From contig NZ_CP007410.1 in assembly GCF_000585995.1 (NCBI RefSeq), forward strand, positions 1,391,430-1,455,429: a stretch of 64,000 nt of DNA, in the 5' to 3' direction. The DNA is from Pseudomonas brassicacearum (GTDB lineage Bacteria > Pseudomonadota > Gammaproteobacteria > Pseudomonadales > Pseudomonadaceae). Position numbers and translations under genes: made by a program. Shown here one piece after another: positions 2,210 through 19,199 of the stretch (its first letter is position 1; each line of letters begins with the position of its first letter). The notes below the pieces were generated by a model, which saw only the letters and a list, made by a program, of their open reading frames with translations, did no database searches and had not been told where the DNA came from.

Positions 2210-4789
2210 TTAGATCCGTGTCTTCAATGTATAGAGTAAATCCAATGCCCGACGCGGGGTCAGGTCGTCCAGATCGAGCTTGGCCAGTTCATCGAGCACC
2301 GGGTGCGGCAGGCTGGCGAACATATCGCTTTGCTGCGGTGCGACCGGTTTGCCCTTGGTTGGGCGTGGCGCTTCGTGGGGCAGGCTGGTGGTTTCCAGGC
2401 GGCTCAGGTGCTCGCGGGCACGGCTGATCACTTCGCTGGGTACACCGGCCAGTTGCGCCACCGCCAGGCCGTAGCTCTGGCTGGCCGGGCCGGGCAGCAC
2501 ATGGTGCAGGAACACGATGCGCTCGTTGTGCTCGGTGGCGTTGAGGTGCACGTTGGCCACCAGTGGCTGGCTTTCCGGCAGCACCGTCAGTTCGAAGTAG
2601 TGCGTGGCGAACAGCGTATAGGCCCGCAGGTGCGCCAGCCGTTCGGCCGCCGCCCAGGCCAGGGACAGGCCGTCGAAGGTGCTGGTGCCGCGCCCGACTT
2701 CGTCCATCAGCACCAGGCTGCGTTCGGTGGCGTTGTGCAGGATGTTCGCTGTTTCGCTCATTTCCACCATGAAGGTCGAGCGCCCGCCGGCCAGGTCATC
2801 ACTGGAGCCGATCCGGGTGAAGATCCGGTCCACCAGGGACAATTCGCAACTGGCCGCCGGCACGAAGCTGCCGATGTGGGCCAGCAGCACGATCAATGCG
2901 GTCTGGCGCATGTAGGTGGATTTACCGCCCATGTTCGGGCCGGTGATCACCAGCATGCGCGTGTTGTCGTCCAGGCTCAGGTCGTTGGCCACGAACGGCG
3001 TGGTCAGCACCTGCTCGACCACCGGGTGACGACCCTGGCTGATACGCATGCACGGCTCACTGACGAAGCGCGGGCAGTTGAGGTCCAGGTTTAGCGCGCG
3101 TTCGGCCAGGTTACTCAGCACGTCCAGTTCCGCCAGGGCACCGGCGGTGTCCTGCAACGGCGGCAATTGGCTGATCAGGTCTTCGAGCAGCGCTTCGTAG
3201 AGCATTTTTTCCCGGGCCAGGGCACGGCTCTTGGCCGACAGCGCCTTGTCTTCGAAGGCCTTGAGCTCCGGGGTGATGAAACGCTCGGCGCCCTTGAGGG
3301 TCTGCCGGCGGATGTAATCGGCCGGGGCCTGTTCGGCCTGCTTGCTCGGCAATTCGATGAAATAACCGTGGATACGGTTGTAGCCGACCTTGAGGTTGGC
3401 CAGGCCCGTACGGGCTTTTTCCCGGGCTTCGAGGTCGATCAGGAACTGGCCGGCGTTTTCGCTCAGCGACTGCAGCTCGTCGAGTTCGGCGTCATAGCCG
3501 GTTTTCAGCACGCCACCGTCGCGGATCACCGCCGGCGGGTTGTCGATGATGGCTTTTTCCAGCAGCGCGGCCAGGTCCGGGTAGGTGCTGGTGGTGCGCG
3601 CCAGTTGCTGCAGGTGCGGCGCTTCGAGGTCGGTCATCGCCACTTGCAGCTCGGGCAAGGCGCCGAGGGCATCGCGCAGGCGCGCCAGGTCTCGGGGGCG
3701 GGCGTTACGCAGGCCGATACGGGCGAGGATCCGCTCGATATCACCGATTTCCTTGAGCTGCGGTTGCAGTTGCTCGAAGCGATAACGGTCCAGCAGGCAG
3801 GTGATGGAGGTCTGGCGCGCCAGCAGCACCGTCAGGTCCCGCAGCGGACGGTTCAGCCAGCGGGTGAGCAGTCGGCTGCCCATGGCGGTCTGACAGCGGT
3901 CGACCACCGATTGCAGGGTGTTGTCGCGCCCGCCGGCCAGGTTGGTGTCCAGTTCCAGGTTGCGGCGGCTTGCGCCGTCCAATACCACCGTGTCGTCCAG
4001 GCGCTCGTGACGCAGGCTGCGCAAGTGCGGGAGGGCGGTGCGTTGGGTTTCCTTGGCGTAGGCCAGCAGGCAGCCGGCAGCGCCGATGGCCAGGGTCAGG
4101 TTCTCGCAACCGAAGCCCTTGAGGTCCTGGGTGGAAAACTGTTGGCAGAGACTTTTCAGCGCCGAATCACGCTCAAAATCCCACGGCGCCCGACGACGCA
4201 CGCCACGGCGTTTTTCCGCCGGCAGGTCTTTGGGCCAGTCGTCCGGGATCAGCAGTTCCACCGGGTTGACCCGCTCCAGCTCCGCCAGCAGGTTTTCCCA
4301 GCCCTTGATCTCCAGCACCGAGAAGTTGCCGCTGGTGATGTCCAGCACCGCCAGGCCGAACAAGCGTTCATCCCCCAGGACTGCGGCGATCAGGTTGTCC
4401 CGGCGTTCATCCAGCAAGGCCTCATCGCTGACCGTACCCGGGGTGATGATCCGCACGACTTGGCGTTCTACTGGCCCTTTGCTGGTGGCCGGGTCGCCGA
4501 CTTGCTCACAAATCACTACGGACTCGCCGAGCTTGACCAGCTTCGCCAGGTAACCTTCCGCCGCGTGGTAAGGAATCCCACACATCGGAATCGCCATGCC
4601 TGCCGATTGCCCACGCGCCGTCAGGGTAATGTCCAACAACTTGGCGGCCTTCTTCGCGTCCTCGTAGAAGATCTCGTAGAAGTCGCCCATGCGGTAGAAC
4701 ATCAGCTGATCGGGGTGCTGATTCTTCAGGCGCCAGTATTGCTGCATCATGGGCGTGTGGGAGGACAGATCGTTCACGGCTGTATTCAT
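2210..4789 (-). CDS. mutS: DNA mismatch repair ATPase MutS
   Basis: An 859-aa protein that finds base mismatches and small loops and recruits MutL. The mismatch-reading F-x-E motif is in MGDFYEIF near the N-terminus. The C-terminal ATPase shows Walker A (GPNMGGKST), Walker B ([16 protein letters not shown]) and the helix-turn-helix tail. I chose the ATG at 4789 ([17 protein letters not shown]), the usual family start. An in-frame ATG at 4837 would add 16 unconserved residues, and neither has a clear ribosome site. It marks the left border of the mutS-cinA tailocin locus. Confidence 0.97.
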
Positions 4790-5047
4790 CGGTGTCAGGG
4801 AAGCTCGTTGAAAGGTGTGGGGCAAAAGGAGGGGCATTGGCCCGGCTTTTCCGCGATGGGCGCAAGGTTAACATGGGTGGTCGGGGGGGACCCAGGCGTG
4901 AGTGGTTTTTGGGATTGTGTGAATATCCGTTGCTGCGGTAATGGCTGCTGACGGTTCCGCTCTTACAGCGGCTCACTTTTGAGAAGCGCAAAAGTAAGCA
5001 AAACGCTTTAGCCCCACCACTCGGTGCCTCGCCTAGGCTCGGCATGC

Positions 5048-6050: not shown

Positions 6051-6100
6051 TGGATCGGGCCGACCTTGAGTGAGTGGTTTCTTCATCGATATGCATGATT

Positions 6101-6114
6101 ATGCAAAACAGCAT
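6101..6114. promoter_or_regulatory. Candidate repressor operator (ATGC-N6-GCAT), copy 1
   Basis: ATGC-AAAACA-GCAT, 28 bp before the chosen repressor start. Three more copies of the same half-site arrangement lie upstream of the tailocin operon. A 7-of-8 match (ATGC-N6-GCAA) is at 6151-6164, and a lone ATGCAT at 6091-6096. The position suggests autoregulation of the repressor. Confidence 0.6.
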
Positions 6115-6141
6115 TTGTCTTCTGCGAAAAGAACAAGCACT

Positions 6142-6885
6142 ATGCGCGTTATGCAAAAACGCAACGTTTCATCCGTATTAAGAGCATTGCTCGATCAGCA
6201 CGGGATCTCCCCCACGGAGCTTCACCGGCGCACTGGCGTGCCTCAGTCCACCCTCTCGCGGATTCTCAGCGGCAAGATCGTCGATCCTTCGGATAAACAC
6301 ATCTCGAAGATCGCCGAGTACTTCGCCGTGAGCACCGACCAGTTGCGCGGGCGCGCGGACGTTGCGCTCGCTGGCAATAGCCGCCGCGTCGAGTCGCATT
6401 CCGAACTCAAGGACATAAGCCTGTGGGATGACGAAACGCCCGTCGAGGAAGACGAGGTGTCGGTCCCTTTTCTGCGTGAGGTTGAATTGGCTGCTGGATC
6501 AGGAAGATTCGTCATCGAGGAAAGCGAGCGCTCAAGCCTGCGCTTTGGCAAGCGCAGCCTGCGGCATAACGGCGTGCAGTTCGACCAGGCCAAATGCGTG
6601 ACGGTACGCGGCAACAGCATGTTGCCGGTGCTGCGCGACGGTGCCACGGTCGGAGTGAATGCGGGCAAGTGTGGGATCGGCGACATCGTCGACGGTGACC
6701 TCTACGCCATCAACCACAACGGCCAACTGCGGGTGAAGCAGCTTTACCGCTTGCCTACCGGCATTCGACTGCGCAGTTTCAACCGCGATGAGCATCCGGA
6801 TGAGGACTACACCTTCCAGGAAATGCAGGATGAGCAAATCGTCATCCTCGGCCACGTCTTCTGGTGGGGCATGTACGCCCGTTAA
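6142..6885 (+). CDS. Tailocin repressor, HTH plus S24 self-cleaving peptidase (PrtR/CI-like)
   Basis: A 247-aa LexA/CI-type regulator with an N-terminal helix-turn-helix of about 55 residues (SPTELHRRTGVPQSTLSRILSG). The C-terminal S24 domain has catalytic Ser159 in GNSMLPV and Lys199 in LRVKQLYR. An Ala-Gly pair in VELAAGSG (about residues 118-119) is the likely RecA-stimulated cleavage site. The start is uncertain: ATG 6142 is used, but ATG 6151, ATG 6091 and GTG 6070 are in frame and none has a strong ribosome site. It is the first gene of the tailocin locus and should hold it silent until DNA damage. It plays the part of pyocin PrtR, but no prtN neighbour was found. Confidence 0.85.
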   Translation: MRVMQKRNVSSVLRALLDQHGISPTELHRRTGVPQSTLSRILSGKIVDPSDKHISKIAEYFAVSTDQLRGRADVALAGNSRRVESHSELKDISLWDDETPVEEDEVSVPFLREVELAAGSGRFVIEESERSSLRFGKRSLRHNGVQFDQAKCVTVRGNSMLPVLRDGATVGVNAGKCGIGDIVDGDLYAINHNGQLRVKQLYRLPTGIRLRSFNRDEHPDEDYTFQEMQDEQIVILGHVFWWGMYAR

Positions 6886-6902
6886 CCCCTTCGCTGTCAG
6901 AT

Positions 6903-6929
6903 AAAACCCGCCACCGTGCGGGTTTTTTT
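6903..6929 (+). terminator. Repressor gene terminator
   Basis: AAAACCCGC-CACCGT-GCGGGTTTTTTTT hairpin with a long T-run, 18 bases after the repressor stop. It separates the repressor transcript from the tailocin operon. Confidence 0.9.
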
Positions 6930-6972
6930 TCGCCCCTGAAAATCGCCTAACCCCCGTATCCATTGAGTGGTG

Positions 6973-6986
6973 ATGCGCTGATGCAT
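6973..6986. promoter_or_regulatory. Candidate repressor operator, copy 2
   Basis: ATGC-GCTGAT-GCAT, upstream of the tailocin promoter. It matches the four-base half sites of the other copies exactly. Confidence 0.6.
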
Positions 6987-7003
6987 TAGTCGCGCATAAA
7001 TAA

Positions 7004-7017
7004 ATGCATTTGCGCAT
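7004..7017. promoter_or_regulatory. Candidate repressor operator, copy 3
   Basis: ATGC-ATTTGC-GCAT. It touches the first base of the -35 hexamer at 7017 and lies 23 bp from copy 4, about two helical turns. Confidence 0.65.
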
Positions 7018-7045
7018 TGACTGTGTATGCATCCATGCATATTCT
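7017..7045 (+). promoter_or_regulatory. Probable sigma-70 promoter of the tailocin operon
   Basis: TTGACT (7017-7022), a 17-bp spacer, then TATTCT (7040-7045), predicting a start near 7052. The spacer is filled by operator copy 4, so a bound repressor would directly block polymerase. Confidence 0.65.
7027..7040. promoter_or_regulatory. Candidate repressor operator, copy 4 (inside the promoter)
   Basis: ATGC-ATCCAT-GCAT, placed between the -35 and -10 boxes and sharing the first -10 base. Confidence 0.7.
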
Positions 7046-7051
7046 GTGTCC

Positions 7052-7293
7052 AAGCCGCTCGACAAAGCGGCTGGCAACAAAGCTCTTTAGTTCCACCAAC
7101 AGGCAGCGATGAACCGGCCTTAACGGTTCAGAGGGTTGGCAACTGACCCGGGTGTGCAGCGTAAAGCACCAGAAGCAGTTATCCGGCGGGCAGGGACCGC
7201 GGTCGGAAAAACAATTTGAATGGATCCGTACCGCGCCAGTCGCGCCGAAAGATCAAGCGCATTACTGAAAAGCCTGGGCAACCGGGCTTTTTG
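7052..7293 (+). ncRNA. Candidate terminated leader RNA of the tailocin operon
   Basis: About 240 nt between the predicted promoter and an intrinsic terminator, without a plausible coding frame. It begins with a 7-bp hairpin (AGCCGCT-N6-AGCGGCT, 7053-7072). It contains GAACCG-N7-CGGTTC (7111-7129) and a GGGT/ACCC hairpin near 7133-7149, and ends at the terminator 7268-7293. It could be an attenuator, an antitermination leader or a stand-alone sRNA; nothing here distinguishes these. Confidence 0.4.
7268..7293 (+). terminator. Terminator inside the tailocin leader
   Basis: AAAGCCTGG-GCAA-CCGGGCTTT is a 9-bp stem (one T-G pair) closed by a GCAA tetraloop and followed by T's. It lies before all structural genes, so transcription starting at 7052 would have to pass it. 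Confidence 0.8.
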
Positions 7294-7338
7294 GAATGCC
7301 TCTGTCGTGAGGCACTTCAAATTAGTAAGGAGATTTCC

Positions 7339-7377
7339 ATGCGCTCGCTTGTGAAGGCTAAGGAGGTGTTCAGATAA
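7339..7377 (+). CDS. Possible 12-codon leader peptide
   Basis: ATG at 7339 encodes MRSLVKAKEVFR and stops with TAA at 7375. A good ribosome site (TAAGGAG) lies 6 bases upstream, and a second AAGGAGG sits inside the ORF. It falls between the leader terminator and the secreted-protein gene. It may be a leader peptide or a chance ORF. Confidence 0.35.
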   Translation: MRSLVKAKEVFR

Positions 7378-7430
7378 AAACGTGTATCGACGTTCTCAAA
7401 AAATCCACTCATTTAAAGGGAAGTAAACTA

Positions 7431-7859
7431 ATGAAAAAATTGTTCAGCGTGTTGATCGCAGCCGTCCTGGCTACCCAAGCCATCCAAGCCATTGCCGAAA
7501 CCTCACCTGTCGGTTCCTGGCAATTCGCTTCCTACCATGTTCCGGGCGGCGGTTTTTATGCCAACCAAACGATCTGTTTCAAAGAAGACAATACCTGGTA
7601 CTCGAGCTCCCAGGCCGGCTGGAAGGGCGCATGGTTCCAGAACGGGGACGATCTCCAATGGAACGGGAGTGTGCCAATGCCGGGTGCAGGGAGCGCCAAC
7701 AATCTCGCGACCATTGCCATGGGTAAGTTCGTTGTCGCAGGTTCGATGTCGGGTAACTACGCGGAATGGGCAGCACCCAGTGCGCTACCGCTGCCTTGGG
7801 ACAAGCACTACACCTACACCATGACTTACAAAGGCGTGACCTGCGCTGCGCCAAAGTGA
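7431..7859 (+). CDS. Secreted protein of unknown function in the tailocin locus
   Basis: A 142-aa protein with a clear signal peptide (MKKLFSVLIAAVLATQAIQAIA, likely cut before ETSP). The mature part is Gly/Trp/Tyr-rich with two Cys (ICFK near the middle and VTCAAPK at the end), suggesting one disulfide. I recognise no family. The ribosome site GGGAAG precedes the ATG by 8 bases. It lies between the regulator and the lysis/structural genes, where a cargo, immunity or surface-acting protein would be conceivable. No evidence chooses among these. Confidence 0.75.
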   Translation: MKKLFSVLIAAVLATQAIQAIAETSPVGSWQFASYHVPGGGFYANQTICFKEDNTWYSSSQAGWKGAWFQNGDDLQWNGSVPMPGAGSANNLATIAMGKFVVAGSMSGNYAEWAAPSALPLPWDKHYTYTMTYKGVTCAAPK

Positions 7860-7989: not shown

Positions 7990-8340
7990 ATGACAAACGA
8001 GCAACAAGCGTTGCTGGACATGCCGATCTGGCTGGTCATCGTGCTCGCCCTGGTGGGCGGGGTGTCCGGCGAGATGTGGCGCGCCGACAAGGAGGGCGCT
8101 CGTGGCTGGCCGTTGCTGCGCCGCGTGGTTCTGCGCTCCGGCGCCTGCGTGGTCTGCGGGGTTTCGGCAACCATGCTGTTGTACGCCCTCGGCATGTCGA
8201 TCTGGAGCGCCTGCGCCCTGGGTTGCCTGACTGCCATGGCCGGTGCCGATGTGGCCATCGGTCTATACGAACGCTGGGTCGCCAAGCGGATCGGCGTTTG
8301 CGAGGTGCCACCGCGAGACCTTCCGCCCGATCAGCCGTGA
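7990..8340 (+). CDS. Holin, pyocin/phage type
   Basis: A 116-aa small membrane protein with hydrophobic segments at about residues 9-28 (MPIWLVIVLALVGGVSGEM), 45-65 (VLRSGACVVCGVSATMLLYAL) and 68-88. It is the right size and position for the holin that opens the inner membrane to the endolysin encoded at 20289. The ATG at 7990 follows AACGAGAC; an upstream in-frame start at 7888 has no support. Holin early and endolysin late is the usual Pseudomonas R-tailocin order. Confidence 0.8.
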   Translation: MTNEQQALLDMPIWLVIVLALVGGVSGEMWRADKEGARGWPLLRRVVLRSGACVVCGVSATMLLYALGMSIWSACALGCLTAMAGADVAIGLYERWVAKRIGVCEVPPRDLPPDQP

Positions 8341-8892: not shown

Positions 8893-9504
8893 ATGTTCGA
8901 TGCGCTTTTGAGTCTGCATCTGGGGCCGATCATCGAGCGTCTGGCCGAGATGGAGACCGAGCTGGAAGACCTGCATCGGCGTGCCGACAGTTTCTGTCGC
9001 ATCGGCGTTTGTCAGGAGGTCGATGCCGCCAGCAACACCTGCAAGGTCAGCCACGGTGGGCTGCTCACCCCAGCGATCCGCTTTTTCAATCCCAGTGCCG
9101 GCGCCCAGAGCGAGTCGCGGATTCCCTCCGTGGGCGAGCAGTGCCTATTGCTGAACCATGGCGGCGGCGAGGGCGGTGGGCAGTCGGTGGCGTTGTTCGG
9201 CCTCAACGGCGGTCAGTTCCCGCCCGTCTCGACACAGGCCTCGCTGACGCGTCGCCTCTATCAGGACGGTTCGGAAAACGGCTACGACCACGCCAGTCAT
9301 GTCCTGTATTGGAAAAACGGTCCGGCGGCGTTCACCGGTTCCCGTGAAGCCCTGCAACTGAACTTCGGCCCGTCGCGGTTGGCGATGACAGCCGAGGCCA
9401 TCGAATTGCAAGTTGGCGCCGTCGGCCTGCGGCTCGATGCTTCCGGTGTGCACCTGAGCGGCCCGGTGGTGGATCACCAGGGTCGCGTCATCAGTACCGC
9501 ATAA
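8893..9504 (+). CDS. Baseplate assembly protein V (central spike)
   Basis: A 203-aa gpV-like protein. It has an N-terminal helix (LGPIIERLAEMETELEDLHRRAD), an OB-like domain (CRIGVCQEVDAASNTCKVSHGG, then IPSVGEQCLLLNHGGGEGGGQSVALFGL) and a C-terminal β-repeat tail (AIELQVGAVGLRLDASGVHLSG). This is the membrane-piercing spike at the tip of the contractile tail. It lies four bases after the preceding stop. Confidence 0.85.
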   Translation: MFDALLSLHLGPIIERLAEMETELEDLHRRADSFCRIGVCQEVDAASNTCKVSHGGLLTPAIRFFNPSAGAQSESRIPSVGEQCLLLNHGGGEGGGQSVALFGLNGGQFPPVSTQASLTRRLYQDGSENGYDHASHVLYWKNGPAAFTGSREALQLNFGPSRLAMTAEAIELQVGAVGLRLDASGVHLSGPVVDHQGRVISTA

Positions 9505-9515
9505 GAGATTTCCTC

Positions 9516-9848
9516 ATGATTGGAATCGATCGAAATACCGGCGCCACGGTCGACGACTGGCTGCAGTTCGTGCAGCGCGCCACCCGGGCGTTGACCACGC
9601 CTTTAGGCACTCGTCAGAAGCGTCCTCTATATGGCTGCGCACTCACCCAGCTACTCGGGCAGAACCTCGGCGACGACTTGCTGATCCTTGCCCAAAGCCA
9701 CGCCGCTCAAGCGTTCTACAACCCACAAAACGGCATCAGTGATTTCGAGCCACAGGTCATTGTCGCCAGCCGACACGGCGCCGGCTTGCTGTTGCGCTTC
9801 GCCGGCACCTGGAAAAACCGTAAGCAAACCTTCGAGGTGGTGACATGA
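9516..9848 (+). CDS. Baseplate protein W (gp25-like)
   Basis: A 110-aa protein of the GPW/gp25 family (MIGIDRNTGATVDDWLQFVQRATRALTTPLGTRQKRPLYG), a baseplate wedge component that starts sheath assembly. It overlaps the next gene by four bases (ATGA), so translation is probably coupled. Confidence 0.88.
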   Translation: MIGIDRNTGATVDDWLQFVQRATRALTTPLGTRQKRPLYGCALTQLLGQNLGDDLLILAQSHAAQAFYNPQNGISDFEPQVIVASRHGAGLLLRFAGTWKNRKQTFEVVT

Positions 9849-10840
9849 GCATGTTGATACCCGGCCAGAACCAGTTGGCCGAACCGGCCATCGTCACCGT
9901 CGACGCGTTCGAGGACCTGCTCGCAGAGTTCAAGACTTTCGTTATCGAGTACGTCGGCGCCCGCTCTCCCGGGAGTGCGGCCAAGCTGGTGGACAGCCTC
10001 GAGAACGAAAGCGAACTGCTGACCCTGGCCCTTGAGGCGTTCTGCGTACGGCTGCAAACCCATGAACGCAAATACAACGCTCGCATCAAGCAGATGCTGG
10101 CGTGGTGGGCCACCGGGACCAACCTTGATGCTCGCCTGGCGGACATGGGGCTCGAACGTCAGTTGCTCGATCCGGGCGATCCGGCGGCTTTCCCGCCCAT
10201 CGCTCCGGTCTACGAGAGTGACGATGATGCCCGCTTGCGCTACTACCTTGCGCCCCATGCTCCGGCGGCGGGCTCGCGCATGCAGTATCGGCGGGAGATC
10301 TTCACCCTCGGCGAACGGCCTGCGGTGAAGGTGGAAAGTGCCGCTGGCGGTGTCGTGAACGTGACCTACACCTTCGATCCGGACGGTCTCGCCGCGCAAG
10401 TCAAGGACGGCAACGGACGCCGGACCGCACCGGGCGAAGTCACGGTCACGGTGCTTTCCCGCGAGGGCGACGGCACACCGTCCGAAGCGCTGCTGAACGG
10501 TGTTCGCCAGCACTTCTCCCGGCCTGATGTGCGACCGGAAACCGACCTGGTCATCGTGCAGGCCGCGCAAATCAAACCCTACAAAATCCGTGTCGTGGCG
10601 AAGATCAATGCCGGTCCGGATTCGGGTTTGACCCAAGTTGCCGCAGAGCAGCAATTACAGGCGTACGCCGAGGCCTGTCACCGCCTGGAAGGTCGGGTGG
10701 ACCCGAGCTGGATCGACTACACGTTGCACAGCGCGGGCGCAGTTCAACTGCAGATTCTCGAACCGCTGGCGCCGATTGTGACGACGGCTTTCCAAGCCCC
10801 GTACTGCACGGGCGTCGAGGTCGAGGTGGACACGTTATGA
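9845..10840 (+). CDS. Baseplate J protein
   Basis: A 331-aa baseplate J/gp47-family protein. The central segment PAVKVESAAGGVVNVTYTFDP followed by PGEVTVTVLSREGDGTPS is typical. It forms the wedge periphery that carries the fibres. It is coupled by ATGA overlaps to W upstream and I downstream. Confidence 0.9.
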   Translation: MSMLIPGQNQLAEPAIVTVDAFEDLLAEFKTFVIEYVGARSPGSAAKLVDSLENESELLTLALEAFCVRLQTHERKYNARIKQMLAWWATGTNLDARLADMGLERQLLDPGDPAAFPPIAPVYESDDDARLRYYLAPHAPAAGSRMQYRREIFTLGERPAVKVESAAGGVVNVTYTFDPDGLAAQVKDGNGRRTAPGEVTVTVLSREGDGTPSEALLNGVRQHFSRPDVRPETDLVIVQAAQIKPYKIRVVAKINAGPDSGLTQVAAEQQLQAYAEACHRLEGRVDPSWIDYTLHSAGAVQLQILEPLAPIVTTAFQAPYCTGVEVEVDTL

Positions 10841-11472
10841 GTGACGACACACCGCGCCCGAGTTTGCTGCCGGCCAACAGTTCACCGCTGGAAAGGGCGC
10901 TTGACCTGGGTTTCGCCCGCTTGCTTGAACGCATCGATCCGCCGTTTCCCGAGCTGATGAATCCGCTCTCGACGCCCCAGGCCTTTCTGCCGTACCTCGC
11001 GGCGGATCGCGGGGTCAGTGAGTGGAGCTCCGCGGCGGGCGAGACTGAAAAGCGTCTGACGGTGGAACTCGCCTGGCCCACCGCTCGGCAAGCCGGGACA
11101 CGAAAGGCGCTGGAAAATGCCGCCAAGGGCTTGCAGCTCATGCCCGAGGTGCGCGCCTGGTATGAGCAAACGCCACCCGGCCCGCCCTACAGTTTTTCCG
11201 TCAGGGCTTTTACCGAACAACCCTATAGCGAAGCCATCGACGCCCGCCTTGATCGTCGGCTGGCCGATGCCAAAAGCGAGCGCGACACCTTGACGGTTTC
11301 GGTCGGCTTGAGTGCCTTCGGCCGTCACGTCATCGGCGCCGCCACGCTGTGCGGCGAGCTGACCACGGTTTATCCGATTGTCATCGACGGGCTCGAAGCC
11401 TCGGGCCAGGCCTTCATGGCCGCCGGGCTCTACAGCGTCGAAACCTCCACTATTTATCCACAGGGGTCCTAA
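10837..11472 (+). CDS. Tail protein I (baseplate-fibre connector)
   Basis: A 211-aa P2 gpI-like protein. The N-terminal signature LLPANSSPLERALDLGFARL, followed by the FLPYLAADRGVSEW segment, marks the family. It links baseplate J and the tail fibre, whose gene starts at the next base after its stop. Confidence 0.9.
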   Translation: MSDDTPRPSLLPANSSPLERALDLGFARLLERIDPPFPELMNPLSTPQAFLPYLAADRGVSEWSSAAGETEKRLTVELAWPTARQAGTRKALENAAKGLQLMPEVRAWYEQTPPGPPYSFSVRAFTEQPYSEAIDARLDRRLADAKSERDTLTVSVGLSAFGRHVIGAATLCGELTTVYPIVIDGLEASGQAFMAAGLYSVETSTIYPQGS

Positions 11473-13020
11473 ATGGCCGACTACTACACCCTGCTCACCG
11501 ATGCGGGGATCGCCTACGAAACCGCCTGCAAGGCGGCGGGCACACCCATCAAGCTGTCGCAGATTTCCGTCGGTGACGGCGGCGGCGCGGTCTACAACCC
11601 CGCGGCCACCGCCACGGCGCTGAAACGCGAAGTGTGGCGCGGGCCGCTCAATGCGCTGTTCCAGGATGAGAAAAACTCGAGCTGGTTACTGGCCGAAGTG
11701 ACCATCCCGCCGGAAGTGGGCGGCTGGTATGTGCGCGAGGCCGGGATCTGGACCGATACCGGGATCCTGTACGCAATTGTTAAATATCCGGAGTCGTTCA
11801 AACCGGTGTTGGCGACTTCCGGTTCGGGGAAAGAGTTTTATATCCGGTCGATTTTCGAGACCAGTAATGCTGAGTCGGTGACGTTGCTGATTGACGACAC
11901 TGTGGTCAAGGCGACGCGGGCTTGGGTGGCGAGTTATGTGGCTGATGAGCTTGCCAAGCTCGATGGAAAGCAATCTGTGCGGGTGGCGACGACGGCCAAC
12001 ATTGCCCTGAGTGGCGCGCAGACGATTGATGGTATTGCTGTGGTCGCGGGAGATCGAGTTCTCGTTAAGTCCCAGACGTTGGCGAAGGACAACGGTATTT
12101 ATGTCGCCACAAACAGCGCTTGGATACGAGCAAAGGATGCCGACGCAAGTGTCGAAGTCACCTCGGGGCTGATTGTCTCGGTTGAGGAAGGGACGACGCT
12201 TGCCAATACGATCTGGCAGTTGGTGACAGATGGTGTGATCGTGCTGGGTACTACGGGGCTGAGTTTTCAGAACGTCACTCAAGGGTTTGCGCCGATTAAT
12301 TCCCCAGCTTTCCAAGGAATGCCTACAGCTCAAACGGGGGCTCAGTTTGATAACACGAACAAGCTAGCTACAAACCTGTTTGTGCAACGAGCTCTGGGTA
12401 ATCTTAGTGCCGCTATAGCTATTACCGATACGATCAGCCTAACGGCTGCGCATTGTGGCTTCTTACTGGTAGGGTCCGTTGGACTTCTTGGTAAAACTGT
12501 TACGTTGCCACCCATCAGTGGGCTGCCTACCGGCGCGACGATCCATTTTTCTGCCGGTGTGGCTGAGACCACTATTGCGGCGGCAGGGTCCGACATCATA
12601 GGTCCGAATGTAGGTGCAACGGGGTCAACCATCACCTCATTTTTAATTGACGCGCTTGATTCAGTCACTCTTGTGAACGTCGGATCAGGCTGGCGAATGG
12701 TAGGTGGTTCTCACCTTAACAAACACAGCGGCCAGTTTGGTGCTGGTCTCGTTGCCAATGGCTATCAGAGACTCCCGAGCGGTTTGATCATTCAGTGGGG
12801 CACTGCCGGGAACACAAACGGATTCGGAACATGGACTTACCCAATAGCATTTCCAAATGCAGTTTTTCGTGTGTTTGCCAGTAACGACGCCACGGCTTCT
12901 GGTGCCAGCATGTACGCATGTGGTGCTCATCCTTCTGGAACGCCTAAAGTATCAGCCACCATCGCGAGTCAGTTGGCGACTGGGGGAGATGCCATCTTCC
13001 TGTTTGCCATCGGTTACTGA
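11473..13020 (+). CDS. Tail fibre (receptor-binding protein)
   Basis: A 515-aa fibre. The N-terminus (about residues 1-150, MADYYTLLTDAGIAYE...) is the conserved baseplate-attaching domain of P2-type fibres. The middle has a repeat-type segment (SGAQTIDGIAVVAGDRVLVKSQ) and the collar-like motif APINSPAFQGMPTAQTGAQ. The C-terminus (GLIIQWGTAG...IAFPNAVFRVF...FLFAIGY) resembles gp53-type receptor-binding tips. The second half is visibly lower in GC than its neighbours, as expected of a module exchanged between strains. It sets the killing spectrum. Confidence 0.9.
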   Translation: MADYYTLLTDAGIAYETACKAAGTPIKLSQISVGDGGGAVYNPAATATALKREVWRGPLNALFQDEKNSSWLLAEVTIPPEVGGWYVREAGIWTDTGILYAIVKYPESFKPVLATSGSGKEFYIRSIFETSNAESVTLLIDDTVVKATRAWVASYVADELAKLDGKQSVRVATTANIALSGAQTIDGIAVVAGDRVLVKSQTLAKDNGIYVATNSAWIRAKDADASVEVTSGLIVSVEEGTTLANTIWQLVTDGVIVLGTTGLSFQNVTQGFAPINSPAFQGMPTAQTGAQFDNTNKLATNLFVQRALGNLSAAIAITDTISLTAAHCGFLLVGSVGLLGKTVTLPPISGLPTGATIHFSAGVAETTIAAAGSDIIGPNVGATGSTITSFLIDALDSVTLVNVGSGWRMVGGSHLNKHSGQFGAGLVANGYQRLPSGLIIQWGTAGNTNGFGTWTYPIAFPNAVFRVFASNDATASGASMYACGAHPSGTPKVSATIASQLATGGDAIFLFAIGY

Positions 13021-13101
13021 CTTTCAAGACAAGGAACTTCTACCAAAATAAAACTACTTCATCAGTCCTGGATGCTGGGACTGTGAACATAAGGTGAGGA
13101 A

Positions 13102-13539
13102 ATGACTCTTTTTTCAAGCAAGACAACGGGTGGTTTCTACGATGACTCCATTCACTCTGCTGCGCAGATTCCCGAAGATGTAGTCGAAATAACCCAAGAG
13201 CGACATATGGAGCTTCTTGAGGGACAGTCCATGGGGAAGCGGATTTCAAGTGGCGAGGATGGTTATCCAATACTTATCGATCCACCTGAACAGTCGCCTG
13301 AGTCTTTAGCAGCGATTGAGCGTGTATGGCGTGACGGCCAGCTTGTTGTGACCGATGGCATGGTTGCCCGGCATCGCGACGAGTTGGAGGAGGGGCGAGA
13401 GACCACTCTTCCTGTCGAACAATACTCGGAGCTTCAAACGTATCGACGAACGCTACGCAACTGGCCGGAGGGGAAAGATTTCCCGCTGGTCGATCACCGT
13501 CCGATAACACCGTCTTGGCTGCTTAAACAGCCCCAATAA
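13102..13539 (+). CDS. Tail fibre assembly chaperone (Tfa-like)
   Basis: A 145-aa protein with the C-terminal pattern of phage/pyocin Tfa proteins (RDELEEGRETTLPVEQYSELQTYRRTL...WPEGKDFPLVDHRPITPSWL). It folds or matures the cognate fibre and usually travels with it. Codon and GC character follow the fibre tip. Ribosome site GGTGAGGAA. Confidence 0.85.
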   Translation: MTLFSSKTTGGFYDDSIHSAAQIPEDVVEITQERHMELLEGQSMGKRISSGEDGYPILIDPPEQSPESLAAIERVWRDGQLVVTDGMVARHRDELEEGRETTLPVEQYSELQTYRRTLRNWPEGKDFPLVDHRPITPSWLLKQPQ

Positions 13540-13565
13540 ACGCCCCGCACCGACGGGGCGTTTTC
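13538..13565 (+). terminator. Terminator after the fibre module (first of two)
   Basis: AACGCCCCG-CACCGA-CGGGGCGTTTTC hairpin overlapping the Tfa stop codon. Confidence 0.8.
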
Positions 13566-13585
13566 TTATCCGTCCAACACCCAAC

Positions 13586-13609
13586 AGCCCCTTCTCAAGG
13601 GGCTTTTTC
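13586..13609 (+). terminator. Terminator after the fibre module (second of two)
   Basis: AGCCCCTTCTCAAGGGGCTTTTTC, a compact hairpin plus T-run 20 bases before the next gene. Confidence 0.75.
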
Positions 13610-13628
13610 GCATCTGGAGAACCCAAAA

Positions 13629-13838
13629 ATGGCACCACGCCAAACCTACACCGTACTCCTCCCATTCCCCACCGGCGGCGGTCATTGGTCGACCACCGGC
13701 CAGGAACTCGACCTGCTCGACGTCGAGGCCAACGCCTTGCGCAGCGCCGGTCGCCTGGAACTGAAAAAAACCGAGGCCGGTGAATCGGTCTCTACATCCA
13801 CCGCGGCCAAAAAAGCCGCTGCCAAGAAGGCTGAATAA
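13629..13838 (+). CDS. Small DUF2635-like protein (Mu Gp38-like)
   Basis: A 69-aa protein directly before the sheath gene, as in Mu-like tail clusters. The N-terminal half is β-like (TYTVLLPFPTGGGHWSTTGQ) and the C-terminus is an Ala/Lys tail (STAAKKAAAKKAE). Its role is unknown. Family placement rests on size, position and the WSTTGQELDL-type motif. Confidence 0.65.
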   Translation: MAPRQTYTVLLPFPTGGGHWSTTGQELDLLDVEANALRSAGRLELKKTEAGESVSTSTAAKKAAAKKAE

Positions 13839-13840
13839 CC

Positions 13841-15007
13841 ATGGCTGAGGTTTTGAACTTCGAGCACAACGGCATTACCGTCAATGCCACTGAATCTCCC
13901 GAGGCCATGGGTGGCCTGGGTGACAACGTCATCGGGCTGGTCGGCACCGCGCCGAATGCCAATCCGCTGATTCCCAAGAACACGCCGTTCCGCATCAACA
14001 GCTTCACCACCCAGGCCCAGTTGGATCCGACCGGTGCCGAGGCGGGGACCTTGTTCCAGGCGGTGTTCCAGATCCTCAAAGTGGTCAAGGTGCCGGTCTA
14101 TGTGGTCATCGTCGAAGAGGGCGCCACACCGGCTGATACCCAGAACAACGTCATCGGCGGCATCGAGGCGCAGACCGGTCGCAAGTTGGGCTTGGCCGCG
14201 TTGAGTGGGGTCGCTGAAGACCTGACCATCATCGGCGCGCCAGGCTTCACCGGCACCAAGGCCGTGGCCGGCGAGTTCGCCTCGTTCGGCAAACGCATCA
14301 AGGCGCGGGTGGTGCTCGATGGCAAGGACGCCTCGGTCGCCGACCAAGTGACCTACAGCCAGGAACTGGGCGGCGCGGACCTCGGTTTCGACCGCTGCCT
14401 GGTGGTACACAACATGCCAGCGGTGTACTCCAAGGCCGCGAAGAAAAACGTCTTCCTGGCGCCGTCGAGCCTGGCCATCGCCGCGCTCGCCAAGGTCAAG
14501 CAATGGGAGAGCCCGGGCAACCAGGTCACCTACGCCGAAGACGTCTCGCGCACCGTGGAATACAACATCCTCGACACCTCCACCGAAGGCGATCTGCTCA
14601 ACCGCTACGGCGTCAGCTACTACGCCCGGACCATCCTCGGTGGCTTCTCGCTGCTGGGTAACCGCTCCATCACCGGCAAGTTCATCAGCTACGTTGGCCT
14701 GGAAGATGCCATCAGCCGCAAGCTGGTCAAGGCCGGCCAGAAAGCCATGGCCAAGAACTTGACCAAGTCGTTCATGGACCAAGAGGTCAAGCGCATCAAC
14801 GACTGGCTGCAAACCCTGGTCGCCGACGAAACCATCCCGGGCGGCAGCGTGTACCTGCACCCGGAATTGAACAGCGTCGAGAAGTACAAGAACGGCACCT
14901 GGTACGTGGTCATCGACTACGGCCGCTACGCGCCGAACGAACACATGATTTATCAACTCAACGCCCGCGATGAAATCATCGAGCAGTTCCTGGAGGACGT
15001 TCTCTAA
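13841..15007 (+). CDS. Contractile tail sheath protein
   Basis: A 388-aa P2 FI-type sheath. The N-terminus HNGITVNATESPEAMGGLGDNVIGLVGTAP and the C-terminal GGSVYLHPELNSVEKYKNGTWYVVIDYGRYAPNEHMIYQ are characteristic. It contracts to drive the tube through the target envelope. It overlaps the tube gene start by one base. Confidence 0.95.
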   Translation: MAEVLNFEHNGITVNATESPEAMGGLGDNVIGLVGTAPNANPLIPKNTPFRINSFTTQAQLDPTGAEAGTLFQAVFQILKVVKVPVYVVIVEEGATPADTQNNVIGGIEAQTGRKLGLAALSGVAEDLTIIGAPGFTGTKAVAGEFASFGKRIKARVVLDGKDASVADQVTYSQELGGADLGFDRCLVVHNMPAVYSKAAKKNVFLAPSSLAIAALAKVKQWESPGNQVTYAEDVSRTVEYNILDTSTEGDLLNRYGVSYYARTILGGFSLLGNRSITGKFISYVGLEDAISRKLVKAGQKAMAKNLTKSFMDQEVKRINDWLQTLVADETIPGGSVYLHPELNSVEKYKNGTWYVVIDYGRYAPNEHMIYQLNARDEIIEQFLEDVL

Positions 15008-15513
15008 TGTTTACCAACCGCGTAAGACAGGCCATCGCGGCCACCCTGCAAGGCCTGCCGTTGTCGGCGACCGTGGAAAGCTTCACCCCACCGAAGATCG
15101 AGTTCGCCATGGAGACGATGACCGGCGGGCGCTTTATTGGCGAGGAAATGGCCAAGAGTGGCAACGTGCTTGGGGCCACGTTGGTGCTACAAGGCGTGGG
15201 ACCGGAAATCATGCTGGCCCTAGGGGTGGGCGTGGGCGACGACATTCTGCTGAACGTGCGCGAGGCCGGTCAGGATCAGGATGGCAATACCTGGTTCACC
15301 TACCACACCGTCGGCGGGAAGTTGAAATCCTTGACCGAAGCGCCGCTGAAAATGGGTGATAAATCGACCACCACGTTGGACCTCTCCTGCCGCACCTACA
15401 GCCGTCTCGAAAACGGCATTCCGGTGATCGACATCGACGTACGCACCCAGAAGTTCGTGCTCAACGGCGTCGATATTCTCGGCGATGCTCGCCGTGCGGT
15501 GTTGTTGCCCTAA
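15007..15513 (+). CDS. Tail tube protein
   Basis: A 168-aa FII-type major tube protein (MFTNRVRQAIAATLQGLPLSATVESFTPPKIEF...RTYSRLENGIPVIDIDVRTQKFVLNGVD). It polymerises as the inner tube. Its start overlaps the sheath stop. A REPIN follows before the chaperone gene. Confidence 0.92.
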   Translation: MFTNRVRQAIAATLQGLPLSATVESFTPPKIEFAMETMTGGRFIGEEMAKSGNVLGATLVLQGVGPEIMLALGVGVGDDILLNVREAGQDQDGNTWFTYHTVGGKLKSLTEAPLKMGDKSTTTLDLSCRTYSRLENGIPVIDIDVRTQKFVLNGVDILGDARRAVLLP

Positions 15514-15552
15514 TCACTGCAGCATTCGCAATGCCAGTCAGTTAAACGCAGT

Positions 15553-15649
15553 CCCTGTGGGAGCGGGCTTGCTCGCGAATGCGTCAGCACATCCAACATT
15601 AATGTTGCCTGACCCACCGCTTTCGCGAGCAAGCCCGCTCCCACAGGGG
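15553..15649. repeat. REPIN inside the tailocin operon
   Basis: CCTGTGGGAGCGGGCTTGCT and its inverse flank about 55 bp between the tube and tail-chaperone genes. It is a strong hairpin in the transcript. Confidence 0.9.
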
Positions 15650-15723
15650 AATCCGCCCAGCCAGAGATTTGCGATAACTGCCCCGTGTTGCGCCTCCCCA
15701 GTATTCACCAAGGAACTGATTCC

Positions 15724-16299
15724 ATGTCCTGGACGCCTCCCGTTCACGTCTTGCTGTCGCCGATCACCGGTGACGACGAAACGCAGATCAAGCAACTCCA
15801 ACTCAAGCCGCTGTACTACGCCGCGCAGAAAGACGCCCTGGCCCGTGCCGGCGATGACGAAGACGATCAGTTCTTCGAGCTGGCCAAATTGGCCACCGGC
15901 CTGTCGGTCAAGGAACTCGACCAGCTCAAACGCCCGGACTACGTGAGCATTGCGCAATACGTGCATGAAATGTCGACCCGTCTGACGTCCCACTTCCTGG
16001 AACAGGTGGACGGCGCACCCGCCGACCCCGACCAGGTGCAACTGCTGCAACCGCTCAACGCAGCGGGTCGCAGCGTGACGTCGCTGAGCCTGGAGATGCC
16101 GATACTGCGCGCCACCAAAGCGATGAAAAAACTGAAGACGGCCAAGGAACGCGCCGAGTTCATCACGGCTCATTGCACCGGCCTGATGCTTCCCGACCTG
16201 GACCTGCTGACCGTGCCCGACTGGACGCAACTGCAGGTACGCATCGACGATTTTTTAAACAAACCGGCGGACTTCTTTCGGAGCGCGACATCGAAGTGA
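15724..16299 (+). CDS. Tail assembly chaperone, unshifted form (P2 E-like)
   Basis: A 191-aa protein (MSWTPPVHVLLSPITGDDETQIKQLQLKPLYY) between the tube and tape-measure genes, the constant place of tail chaperones. It coats the tape measure during assembly. ATG 15724 follows AAGGAACTG; the upstream in-frame start at 15685 is less likely. Codon 176 onward holds a slippery heptamer, giving a longer second product (see next entry). Confidence 0.85.
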   Translation: MSWTPPVHVLLSPITGDDETQIKQLQLKPLYYAAQKDALARAGDDEDDQFFELAKLATGLSVKELDQLKRPDYVSIAQYVHEMSTRLTSHFLEQVDGAPADPDQVQLLQPLNAAGRSVTSLSLEMPILRATKAMKKLKTAKERAEFITAHCTGLMLPDLDLLTVPDWTQLQVRIDDFLNKPADFFRSATSK

Positions 16300-16421
16300 T
16301 CCTCGATGTGGTGCCGCTCATTTACCCGGTAAGTGAAGCGGAAATTCTGGAGTGGGACGCCGGCAAGGCCTTGCGCCGTTACGACATCGCGATCACTCGC
16401 CTTGGCGTGAAACAGGAGTAG
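16173..16421 (+). CDS. Tail assembly chaperone -1 frameshift extension (P2 E'-like)
   Basis: The frame overlaps the chaperone end and lacks its own ribosome site. The heptamer T-TTT-TTA (16251-16257) is in the exact reading phase for a -1 slip. The fused product would be about 232 aa: 178 codons of the first frame, then KQTGGLLSERDIEVILDVVPLIYP... to 16421. P2 phage makes its E+E' chaperone at the closely related T-TTT-TTG. Treat as one gene with two products; only the part from 16257 is expected to be translated in this frame. Confidence 0.8.
   Translation: MHRPDASRPGPADRARLDATAGTHRRFFKQTGGLLSERDIEVILDVVPLIYPVSEAEILEWDAGKALRRYDIAITRLGVKQE
16251..16257 (+). promoter_or_regulatory. Programmed -1 ribosomal frameshift site
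   Basis: T-TTT-TTA slippery heptamer in phase with the chaperone codons GAT TTT TTA. The -1 frame is open for 54 more codons. No strong downstream stimulatory hairpin was recognised by eye. Confidence 0.8.
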
Positions 16422-16427
16422 AGCGGG

Positions 16428-18602
16428 ATGGCGGACGATAGATATTCGCTCAAATACGCAGCCTTCAATGAGAGTGGGTTGGCGTTTGGTAATACCAGCC
16501 TCGCGAGTGGTGTTTCAGCGCAAGGCACAGGTGCGTCCGCCAGGGAACAGCTGTCTGGCCTCGGTCTGGCGCTGGAGAACCTCGGACTCAAGCTCGGTCT
16601 GCTGACGACGGCTGTCGAGTCATTGACCTTGAAGCTTTCGGCGCAACGGACGATGGGGGCCGCAGCCAAGGCTGAGACGGCCAAGGATCCGAAGGGTCGA
16701 TCAGGTGGCGGTATCGAACCGCCGGAGCTGCTGAAGCCGGCGATAGCGATGGATTTGGCCATGGCCGATCTGAAGCAGGCGGGCCGATTTAGCCCTCGTC
16801 AGATCGCAGAAATGGCTGAGCCAACTCAGCAGATCGCCATCGCTCCGCTAGTGGCAGCCGGTGGGACCAAAGCGGTCGATCTGGTGAGGATCGAAAGTAT
16901 GGCGGCCAGGGCGGGAATCGGGAGCGATCTGCCCAACGCTTCAGACCGACAGTTCGAGTTGCTGCGCTTCGCCAGTGATGCTGGCGTCGCTGCCTCGGCA
17001 TTCAGGCTGCCGGCCATGGAGGTCGCCGAAATGATGGTCGGCTGGCGCACCTCCATGAAGCTCAGCGGCGCTCAAGCCTTTGACCTGGCGGATGCCTCCA
17101 GCCATCTGGGCAAGATCCCCGGTGGCGCGAAAGCGGGTGACATCGGCGCCGTCTTGCAGCGTGACGGTGCGGCGGCGACGGCGGCGGGGCTGGCCCCTGC
17201 GCAAGCCGCCGCGTTGACAGCGGCATTGCTCAATACCGGTTCGCAACAAACTGAAGCCAGCGTAGCGCTCAATACTTTCACGACTGCCATGGGCAAGGGT
17301 GATCAAGCCTCCGCCACTGAGCAAGCGGCCTGGAAGCAGTTGGGACTGGAGCCGAACGCGGTGGCGAGCGGCCTGCGCGGCAAAGACACGGCGCCTGGCA
17401 CAGTGATGTCGGTGCTTGCGGCTTTGAACGCGCAACCTGCCGAGAAGCGCCCGGCGCTGGCCTCCACGTTGTTTAGCTCCGGTGACGAAGCGGTGCTGCG
17501 CATGGCGCAGAAACTGGCCGATGTGAATGAAGCCTTCGGACAGGTGAACGACCCAGCTCAGTACGCCACGTCGCAGTTGGGTAATGGAGGCTCGGTGAGG
17601 CAGGACGCGTTGGCGCTGTCGAACACTCGGCAAGGTCAGTTGAACGTCCTGGATGCACGCGCTGACAGGCTCTCAGTGACCACGGGCAATGCCCTGGCGC
17701 CCGTCGCGGACATCTCGATTCAGGCGCTTGGTTCGCTGGCGGATGGCATGAGCGAATTGGCTGAGTCTTCACCTAAAGCCACCGCTGCCATTGTATTGGT
17801 TGCCGCCGCGATCAAACCGCTGGTGGGCATGCTGCTCAAGGCCGTAGTGGATGAGATGTCCAATCAGGTGGCCAAGCGGGTGTTGGGCAAGGCCGCTCCG
17901 CACCTTCCCGGCCGACTGGGTGAGGTGATCTCCGAAGACTTCAGGAAAAATCCTCGTGGGGACAAGCTGGATACAAGCAATGCCAGCCAGCGTCCCGAAT
18001 CCACGAGAGGACCGAAAATACGCGTCAGTACACGAGGCTCGCGGGGGACCGCAGGGCGTTATCCACTCGGACCAACGGCCTCATTACGCTCGATGACGCG
18101 CAACGCGCCCGGCCCATTGAAAGTGGTCGGCGCCGTCGCTGATGTGGCCGAGGGTGTGCTGACCGGCGACAAACAGATGATGGGCGCAGGCCTGGGAGCC
18201 GCGGGTGGCGGCTGGGCAGGCGCGGCTGCGGGGTCTGCGGCCGGTGCCGCTTTGGGCAGTGTCGTTCCGGTGATCGGCACTGCCATTGGGGGGCTGGTTG
18301 GCGGACTGCTGGGCGGCTGGCTGGGGAGTGATGCCGGCGCCTCCCTGGGTGAAAAACTCGTCGCCCCCGCCGACAGGCTCGCTGCTCCAGACCAGGTCAG
18401 CAAAGACCTGGCCAGCACCCAGACAACCACACAGCAGAACACCATGACCGCCAACATCTACATCAACGGCCAGGACCAGGCCAGCGCCAGTCAGCTGGCC
18501 AACCTGGTCGTGCAGCAGCTCTCGGGCCAATTCGGCTTAACGACCGTGCCCAACTCACTGGCCATGCGCAGTGATGCGGCCCTGACCGACGGAGGTACGT
18601 GA
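16428..18602 (+). CDS. Tail tape measure protein
   Basis: A 724-aa protein rich in Ala and helices, typical of tape measures, which fix tail length. A Gly/Ala hydrophobic stretch near residues 580-640 (GAGLGAAGGGWAGAAAG ... GLVGGLLGGWLG) could insert in the target membrane. The last part contains TANIYINGQDQASASQLANLV, a common tape-measure ending. By the rule of about 1.5 Å per residue the tail would be near 110 nm. It overlaps the next gene (TGATG). Confidence 0.9.
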   Translation: MADDRYSLKYAAFNESGLAFGNTSLASGVSAQGTGASAREQLSGLGLALENLGLKLGLLTTAVESLTLKLSAQRTMGAAAKAETAKDPKGRSGGGIEPPELLKPAIAMDLAMADLKQAGRFSPRQIAEMAEPTQQIAIAPLVAAGGTKAVDLVRIESMAARAGIGSDLPNASDRQFELLRFASDAGVAASAFRLPAMEVAEMMVGWRTSMKLSGAQAFDLADASSHLGKIPGGAKAGDIGAVLQRDGAAATAAGLAPAQAAALTAALLNTGSQQTEASVALNTFTTAMGKGDQASATEQAAWKQLGLEPNAVASGLRGKDTAPGTVMSVLAALNAQPAEKRPALASTLFSSGDEAVLRMAQKLADVNEAFGQVNDPAQYATSQLGNGGSVRQDALALSNTRQGQLNVLDARADRLSVTTGNALAPVADISIQALGSLADGMSELAESSPKATAAIVLVAAAIKPLVGMLLKAVVDEMSNQVAKRVLGKAAPHLPGRLGEVISEDFRKNPRGDKLDTSNASQRPESTRGPKIRVSTRGSRGTAGRYPLGPTASLRSMTRNAPGPLKVVGAVADVAEGVLTGDKQMMGAGLGAAGGGWAGAAAGSAAGAALGSVVPVIGTAIGGLVGGLLGGWLGSDAGASLGEKLVAPADRLAAPDQVSKDLASTQTTTQQNTMTANIYINGQDQASASQLANLVVQQLSGQFGLTTVPNSLAMRSDAALTDGGT

Positions 18603-18985
18603 TGCGTCAACAAATGGCACTCGGCAGTTTCATCTTTGGCCTGTCCAGGCATTTCGCTTACCACAACCTGGTGCACACCTCGAATGGCGGCTGGAAGAGC
18701 ATCGACATCCTCACCAGCAAACCCAAGTCCAGCCAGGTCGGCCAAGGCCTGCAAGGGCTGACGATCACGGGCAAGTCGATGTATGCGACCGCTATGGATC
18801 GACTCGATGAGCTGCGGGCATTGCAGGCCCAGCGCATCCCCCTGCCGCTGGTGGATGGCATCGGTCGCAACTGGGGCCTGTGGCAGATCAACAAGGTCAC
18901 GGAAACCCAGACCGAGATCATCGATGACGGCACCGCGATGGTGGTCGGCTGGGTCATTGAATTGACGGAGTTCGCCAATGCGTAG
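18602..18985 (+). CDS. Tail protein U
   Basis: A 127-aa P2 gpU-like protein (MALGSFIFGLSRHFAYHNLVHTSNGGWKSIDILTSKPKSSQ). ATG 18602 overlaps the tape-measure stop as TGATG; GTG 18599 is possible but unneeded. U-family proteins act at a tail end during tube assembly. It overlaps gene X by eight bases. Confidence 0.88.
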   Translation: MRQQMALGSFIFGLSRHFAYHNLVHTSNGGWKSIDILTSKPKSSQVGQGLQGLTITGKSMYATAMDRLDELRALQAQRIPLPLVDGIGRNWGLWQINKVTETQTEIIDDGTAMVVGWVIELTEFANA

Positions 18986-19190
18986 GGTTCGAAGCATCGC
19001 CGGTGATTCGGTGAATCTGTTGCTGTACCGCGAGCTTGAGCGTTGTGACGATGCCACCGAGGAAGCACTTTGGCGGCTCAATCCAACCTTGGCCGAATGG
19101 GGGCCGGTCCTGCCGGCGGGGGTGTGGGTCGTGCTGCCGGAAGTAGACCTCAAGCCCGTTGCAACTGCGCCGGTTTCGGCTTGGGATTAA
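18978..19190 (+). CDS. Tail protein X (LysM-like)
   Basis: A 70-aa P2 gpX-type protein (SIAGDSVNLLLYRELERCD...LNPTLAEWGPVLPAGVWVVLPE). This is the small LysM-like fold that joins spike and tube. It starts inside the end of U and is followed by D after an AAGGAGG site. Confidence 0.9.
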   Translation: MRRVRSIAGDSVNLLLYRELERCDDATEEALWRLNPTLAEWGPVLPAGVWVVLPEVDLKPVATAPVSAWD

Positions 19191-19199
19191 GGAGGCGAC

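Follow-up and report, generated by a model that had tools for sequence, protein, structure and literature searches.

Predicted operators of an S24 repressor and a structured leader RNA at the mutS-cinA tailocin locus of Pseudomonas brassicacearum

In the available text of two papers on the pyocins of P. aeruginosa (PMC8609362, PMC10598620), these tailocins are controlled by a two-step relay from the S24 repressor PrtR to the activator PrtN. The tailocin studied here shares with them a PrtR-like S24 repressor, for which cleavage upon DNA damage is expected, and differs in that its genome gave no match to the PrtN family (PF11112) and in that the tailocin promoter itself bears the predicted operators. 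The same portion of the 2023 review (PMC10598620) states that non-pathogenic plant-associated Pseudomonas possess prtR and lack prtN, and that the regulation of clusters outside the PrtN-PrtR model remains unclear. Tailocins located between mutS and cinA are known from strains of the P. fluorescens group, with prophage 01 of Pf-5 and ssh6 of Q8r1-96 (GenBank accession number EU982300) as examples; they occupy the same locus as the one described here, their repressor gene was named prtR, and the examined text of PMC2647930 names neither operators nor a leader for it. A literature search over titles and abstract openings gave, among the matches listed, no paper on the operators or the leader reported below.

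A second comparison is offered by the CI repressors of phages lambda and 434, S24 proteins with a helix-turn-helix (HTH) domain that act on several palindromic operators placed on a promoter. In lambda, operator OR2 stands at the promoter PRM in a -42.5-type geometry, with a leaderless cI mRNA, and cI is followed in the same direction by PL and then by a leader; in nutL, as in put of HK022, a boxA-like sequence and hairpins near the 5'-end of the transcript come just after PL. All of these features have predicted counterparts at the present locus, including operators 23 and 31 bp apart, one operator at -42.5 and a leaderless repressor start. It differs from lambda and 434 in the operator, a 14-bp ATGC-N6-GCAT element of 434-like length and other sequence, and in the genes driven, which are tailocin lysis and tail genes and not early phage genes; a cro gene was not noticed beside the repressor. 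From nutL and put it differs in having three hairpins of other sequence, for which a role in antitermination is predicted. We consider it very probable that the palindromes are operators of a CI-type S24 repressor that represses the tailocin promoter directly, with probable self-activation and in what looks like a domesticated lambda-type left arm.

The tailocin locus and its palindromes

The window analysed, 64,000 nucleotides of the P. brassicacearum genome (assembly GCF_000585995.1, contig NZ_CP007410.1), carries, in this order, mutS (2210-4837, minus strand), the S24 (CI/PrtR-like) repressor gene (6151-6885, plus strand), the holin gene, a lysis gene 3' of the tailocin promoter (7990-8340, plus strand; PF16085, 2.7e-56), the tailocin baseplate, fibre, sheath, tube, tape-measure and, as a weak match, hub genes (8893-20216, plus strand; Pfam and PHROGs), lysis genes, cinA (21442-21942) and recA (22014-23078). 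Among phage records the closest was EU982300 from P. fluorescens Q8r1-96, with 93% identical DNA over 1230 bases, and it was the sole match when the operator region alone was compared with phages by BLAST. The repressor, scanned from 6142, has an HTH domain (PF01381, 2e-11) and an S24 peptidase domain (PF00717, 1.2e-17). Residues A115-G116, S156 and K196 were invariant in all eight repressors aligned, and we take the first two to be the cleavage site and the others the Ser/Lys dyad. A PDB sequence search gave no match for the repressor.

The palindrome ATGC-N6-GCAT was found in four exact copies on the plus-strand reading, as reported in the initial annotation, and nowhere else in the window. 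One copy (6101-6114, the OR-like upstream operator) precedes the repressor gene. The other three, designated O1 (6973-6986), O2 (7004-7017) and O3 (7027-7040), follow it; the centres of O1 and O2 are 31 bp apart and those of O2 and O3 23 bp. EU982300 carries all three downstream operators like the window and, unlike it, has an upstream copy with a gap of 7 bases instead of 6. The predicted tailocin promoter (PL-like, 7017-7045, plus strand) is composed of TTGACT (7017-7022), a 17-bp spacer and TATTCT (7040-7045), an arrangement which shuffled sequences yield 0.7 times by chance. The last base of O2 is the first T of the -35 element, and O3 does fill the spacer between -35 and -10, as previously noted, reaching the first base of the -10 element.

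The earlier estimate that one exact match is expected in about 65 kb was somewhat low, the mean being 1.69 in shuffles of the window and the frequency in the genome one per 33 kb (200 copies in 6,652,396 bases; 20 for a reversed-pattern control). Four or more copies were reached in 8 of 100 window shuffles; the count of four is unremarkable and a single copy ordinary, and it is the clustering that is remarkable. Genome-wide, copies no more than 30 bp apart occur at this locus alone (two overlapping pairs; control 0). The whole-genome count thus upheld the singularity of the paired copies and not any rarity of single ones, and a chance origin of the palindromes was rejected on this count of paired sites. 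The stricter pattern ATGCAW-NN-WTGCAT occurs once in the genome, at O3.

Conservation of the sites and the recognition helix

Repressor relatives in named records were represented by the best 80 of 342 stretches, all from Pseudomonas and 89-98% identical. Each of these best 80 of 342 loci had the upstream copy (80/80), while three downstream copies were present in 65 of them and two in 15, and the other 790,539 bases of the same set contained 5 copies. A genus survey gave a repressor match in at least 306 of 398 genomes, and 40 loci at 85-90% identity, taken from the listed genus matches, were added together with 30 loci from 30 genomes with weaker best matches. By repressor identity, the final set comprised 122 loci at 80% or above (window and EU982300 included), 10 at about 75% and 20 below 70%. 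Because the close loci are related by descent and some species may be present in both the named and the unnamed set, the counts refer to sequences and not to independent events.

Positions of the sites were nearly constant across the 122 loci of the group at 80% or above. The upstream copy was exact in 112 of the 122 and in none of the 10 loci of the 75% group, where the site is degenerate. Within 500 bases downstream, three copies occurred in 89 loci (one of these, L185, being counted through a copy 447 bases away), two in 27 and one in 6; further copies amounted to 15 across 1,171,696 bases. Centres of neighbouring copies were 23 bp apart in 108 pairs and 31 bp apart in 81. The -35 hexamer TTGACT is missing in four of the 122 loci, and where several were present the best-flanked one was chosen by script. 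In the remaining 118, O3 was exact throughout (118/118) and O2 in 106; in the 75% group O2 was exact in 10/10, and O3 matched at 6-7 of 8 positions in the 10 loci. An information profile of 121 of the 122 loci (L101 could not be anchored) gave mostly 1.4-2 bits for O2, O3 and the promoter, with two variable bases at the centre of O3 (0.44 and 0.96 bits). O1 was the least conserved of the three downstream sites, its fixed bases carrying about 1.0-1.2 bits. The full operator consensus is close to ATGCAT-NN-ATGCAT.

The recognition helix of the repressor, GV[PA]QSTLSRILS (GVPQSTLSRILS), was present in 9/9 sequences examined of the 132 close loci. Of the 20 loci below 70%, the motif occurred near the gene in one only, L154, with 58% overall identity and the helix QSTLSRILS retained. 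Two operators, 22 bp apart, lie upstream of the L154 gene and the downstream side has none; this could be the form that the switch takes in a prophage. The other 19 distant S24 loci, presumably encoding prophage repressors, have other helices and contained no copy of the motif anywhere in stretches of 3.5 kb; their identity to the repressor is 8-28% in the N-terminal and 35-62% in the C-terminal part. As the motif is present with the same helix and absent in these 19 relatives, it tracks the DNA-binding half of the protein and not the peptidase half.

The initial annotation had proposed direct repression in place of the PrtR-to-PrtN relay, and this is supported by the outcome of the PrtN search and by the report, in the part of the review available (PMC10598620), of prtR without prtN. 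PF11112 had no match in this genome. A first search was silent in control genomes as well and was repeated across the family, in which 29 of 99 genomes were positive, and on this basis a PrtN relay at this locus was rejected; the search employed the Pfam PrtN model alone, and another activator could exist. An S24 relative was encoded in 6 of 10 PrtN regions, with 38-42% identity along the alignment. Of these repressors, five align from query residue 27 (40-42%), with GVSQNTIHKLTSGK against GVPQSTLSRILSGK of the window, and share 7 of 14 residues of the helix stretch as counted by eye; the sixth (L257, 38%) aligns from residue 56 only, beyond the helix. By this stretch, the HTH of the present repressor may be only partly like that of the PrtN-linked ones; the ten PrtN regions held at most one isolated copy of the motif each. 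Direct repression by the S24 protein is well supported as a prediction from these comparisons.

Replacement of O3 by a LexA-like box, CTGTATATNCATACAG, was observed in the spacer of 3 of the 10 loci of the 75% group (L144, L149 and L153, some 130-150 bases beyond the stop codon of the repressor gene), as would fit a spacer palindrome that is mainly an SOS box, with LexA and not the S24 protein controlling the tailocin promoter. The other seven loci of this group match 13-14 of 16 LexA positions and end in CAT, 28 of 113 scored loci of the group at 80% or above match 13 of 16, and the G after TTGACT (7023 and equivalents), needed by neither operator nor promoter, is kept in 114/120 and 10/10. 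In the window, however, the spacer site matches 11 of 16 LexA positions and has CAT where the box would have CAG; CTG-N10-CAG is absent from O1, O2 and the upstream site, and it is the recognition helix of the S24 protein that the motif accompanies. A scan allowing up to three mismatches found no near-consensus LexA box in the window, although it also misses a divergent candidate before recA. LexA as the main regulator is disfavoured and in our estimate very improbable; the sole CTGT-N8-ACAG of the window lies at 1538, far from the promoter. Control at one site may possibly change between CI and LexA.

A separate observation by eye was the CTG-N10-CAG LexA-like site CTGGCTACTTATACAG at 21970-21985, just before recA, which consensus scans missed.

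The leader RNA and its neighbouring promoters

Downstream of the tailocin promoter, the boxA-like sequence GCTCTTTA (7082-7089, plus strand) precedes a predicted structured leader RNA of three hairpins (7102-7191, plus strand). A terminator-like hairpin with a T run (7268-7292, plus strand) lies between this leader and the first gene; it was not listed by the terminator scan. The leader was found in 108 of the 122 close loci and in 0/10 of the 75% group, which suggests that the tailocin can run without it. In 93 of the 108 leader-bearing loci GCTCTTTA occurs within 900 bases after the repressor stop, and phages Medea1 and Aurca01 likewise have a boxA-like sequence after the promoter and ahead of the hairpins. 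The leader is common to the phages PseuP_224, Orimi01, Aurca01, Medea1 and others (11 records), and its model R1 was found in 85 of 149 genus genomes, in some of them two or three times. At E<=1, no Rfam model matched the leader; three hits were obtained (E 0.11-0.89), all at 6843-6931.

Alignment of 34 distinct leader sequences gave 16 pairs in the three hairpins, with 98.9% of cells paired. Two-sided changes affected 7 of the 16 pairs (21 cells), a value as high being reached in 0 of 500 shuffles, and slid controls gave at most 2 pairs. Near the start of a PL-type transcript, conserved hairpins with compensatory changes of this kind are what is expected of nut/put-type elements. The minimum-energy fold of 7046-7310 contains hairpins 1 and 3 and not 2, and the centroid structure all three; the fold has a z-score of -2.96, and 1 of 200 shuffles was equally good. 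Since the order of promoter with operators, boxA-like sequence and hairpins is that of lambda PL-nutL, an antitermination element is proposed.

The leader might instead be an ordinary attenuator, or a remnant of com or of a small ORF, with no role in antitermination, and to this we give a sizeable though lesser probability. In 98 of 108 loci the leader is succeeded by a terminator-like hairpin (G-U pairs allowed, in a count made without shuffle control; 59/108 when a perfect stem is required), as an attenuator would have it; a com-like ORF comes after the leader in EU982300, and the 75% group does without the leader. The two-sided changes in 7 of 16 pairs speak against this view, and the same leader is found elsewhere after promoters with differing palindromes, often with a boxA-like sequence before it. 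Conservation of a protein was considered as well, since the annotation of PseuP_224 places a 42-aa ORF on the leader, and was rejected because in the window a stop codon closes this frame after four codons. Antitermination is the reading retained below.

EU982300 differs from the window in its com-like gene 3' of the leader. In the Q8r1-96 locus the leader is followed by a gene annotated 'translational regulator Com'. When 2025-2333 of this locus (L028) was compared by eye with 7220-7430 of the window, no such gene was seen in the latter, which has there a 142-aa ORF (7431-7859) that Pfam, PHROGs and NCBIfam do not match.

Twenty further leader copies were fetched, 18 of them placeable, and the leader loci considered number 24. 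At TTGAC, 15 of the 24 have a pair of 14-bp palindromes sharing one half-site type, the first always at -13..0 and the second starting at +6 to +13, with scores reached by 0 to 5 of 200 shuffles. The pairs are of the ATGC type in five loci (window, L262, L267, L277 and L280) and have other half-sites in ten (ATAAGC, ATGGG, TTACC, AAAGGC and others, several of these loci being nearly identical to one another). Eight of the 24, among them Orimi01, Aurca01 and Medea1, had no significant palindrome pair, and one was without TTGAC. Besides the tailocin loci L277 and L280, a same-direction S24 relative is encoded upstream in 4 of the 18 fetched loci, and an S24 relative also lies upstream of the leader in PseuP_224. 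As differing pairs occupy the same promoter position, ATGC-N6-GCAT sits where such loci carry what appear to be their own immunity operators.

The assignment of the palindromes to the S24 repressor, put forward in the initial annotation, is therefore supported for these predicted sites by their fixed positions, by co-occurrence with the recognition helix and by the other palindromes found elsewhere at equivalent promoter positions. As an alternative, to which most loci, being close relatives, lend some colour, the sites might serve an unknown third regulator or be non-regulatory DNA kept by common descent. Against this stand the site-specific conservation with variable central bases, the survival of the motif to 75% repressor identity and, upstream, to 58%, its absence where the HTH differs and the other palindromes of other leader loci. 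We hold this alternative to be highly unlikely and retain the S24 repressor as the protein that the sites would serve.

The proposed repressor promoter and switch

An ATG equivalent to that at 6151 was present in 132/132 loci, and the in-frame ATG at 6142 in 104/122 of the group at 80% or above and in 0/10 of the 75% group. In 26 of the 28 loci without the latter, AT is retained and the third base changed (12 ATC, 14 ATT); with AT kept while the third base varies, the bases at 6142 are not kept as a start codon. The start codon of the repressor is thus most likely 6151, judged from these alignments. Three conserved islands were found 5' of it in the 122 and 10 loci: the operator (-50..-37), TTG (-36..-34; 2.00, 2.00 and 1.88 bits) and CA--AT (-13..-8). 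From this profile a PRM-like repressor promoter is proposed at 6115-6143 (plus strand), with TTGTCT at 6115-6120, a spacer of 17 bp and CACTAT at 6138-6143; it was not listed by a consensus promoter scan. The transcript would apparently start at about 6150/6151 and be leaderless, and with this geometry the upstream operator is centred at -42.5.

By analogy with lambda OR2 at PRM, the upstream operator may activate the repressor gene. The initial annotation had included this copy in a repressing operator set; repression does fit, and the placement at -42.5 suits activation of the repressor's own promoter at least equally. The 7-of-8 copy described there is present at 6151-6164, reading ATGCAAAAACGCAA, and is doubtful as a weak operator: it overlaps the coding start, where it would span +1 to +14 within codons, is not kept in the 75% group and may be a coding coincidence. 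Simple negative autoregulation, with the upstream site serving to lower and not to raise expression of the repressor gene, has in our view a considerable chance of being correct, yet a smaller one than activation. An operator adjoining a -35 element can also block, and a weak copy at +1 is consistent with feedback repression. On the other hand, relative to the promoter-like element that is best conserved, the centre of the site falls at -42.5, as reckoned from the predicted transcript start; this is the placement of OR2 at PRM in lambda. The -10 element, CACTAT, is far from consensus and would need help. Self-activation is the reading preferred here.

A terminator-like hairpin with a T run was also seen by eye directly 3' of the repressor stop (6903-6930); the terminator scan did not list it.

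In a resting cell, the repressor would occupy O2 and O3, helped by O1, and block RNA polymerase at the -35 element and the spacer, so that the lysis and tail genes would be kept off without a PrtN-type activator. Upon DNA damage, active RecA would lead to self-cleavage of the repressor at Ala-Gly, which would free the promoter. Through the remaining operator, centred at -42.5 of what seems a weak and leaderless promoter, the repressor would most likely boost transcription of its own gene, in the manner of lambda CI at OR2 and PRM. The PRM-like promoter, cI, the OL/PL-like promoter, the boxA-like sequence and the hairpin leader would together represent a domesticated left immunity arm of the lambda type. 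Binding, repression, RecA-dependent cleavage, self-activation, antitermination and the transcription of holin and tail genes as one operon are steps that we infer. The complete combination for P. fluorescens-group tailocins, namely a self-activating leaderless repressor gene, direct repression of the OL/PL kind and a new boxA/three-hairpin leader carrying polymerase past the terminator-like hairpin into an operon of roughly 13 kb, is put forward tentatively, as slightly more apt to fail in one of its parts than to hold in all.

The leader RNA, for which no Rfam family was found, would be a second control element common to tailocins and phages. The operators suggest the start codon of the repressor and both promoters, and they set a one-step, lambda-like logic apart from the relay of the pyocins with its two steps. 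They would provide, for many soil and plant Pseudomonas species, a specific answer to the question of how tailocins are controlled where the known activator is lacking.
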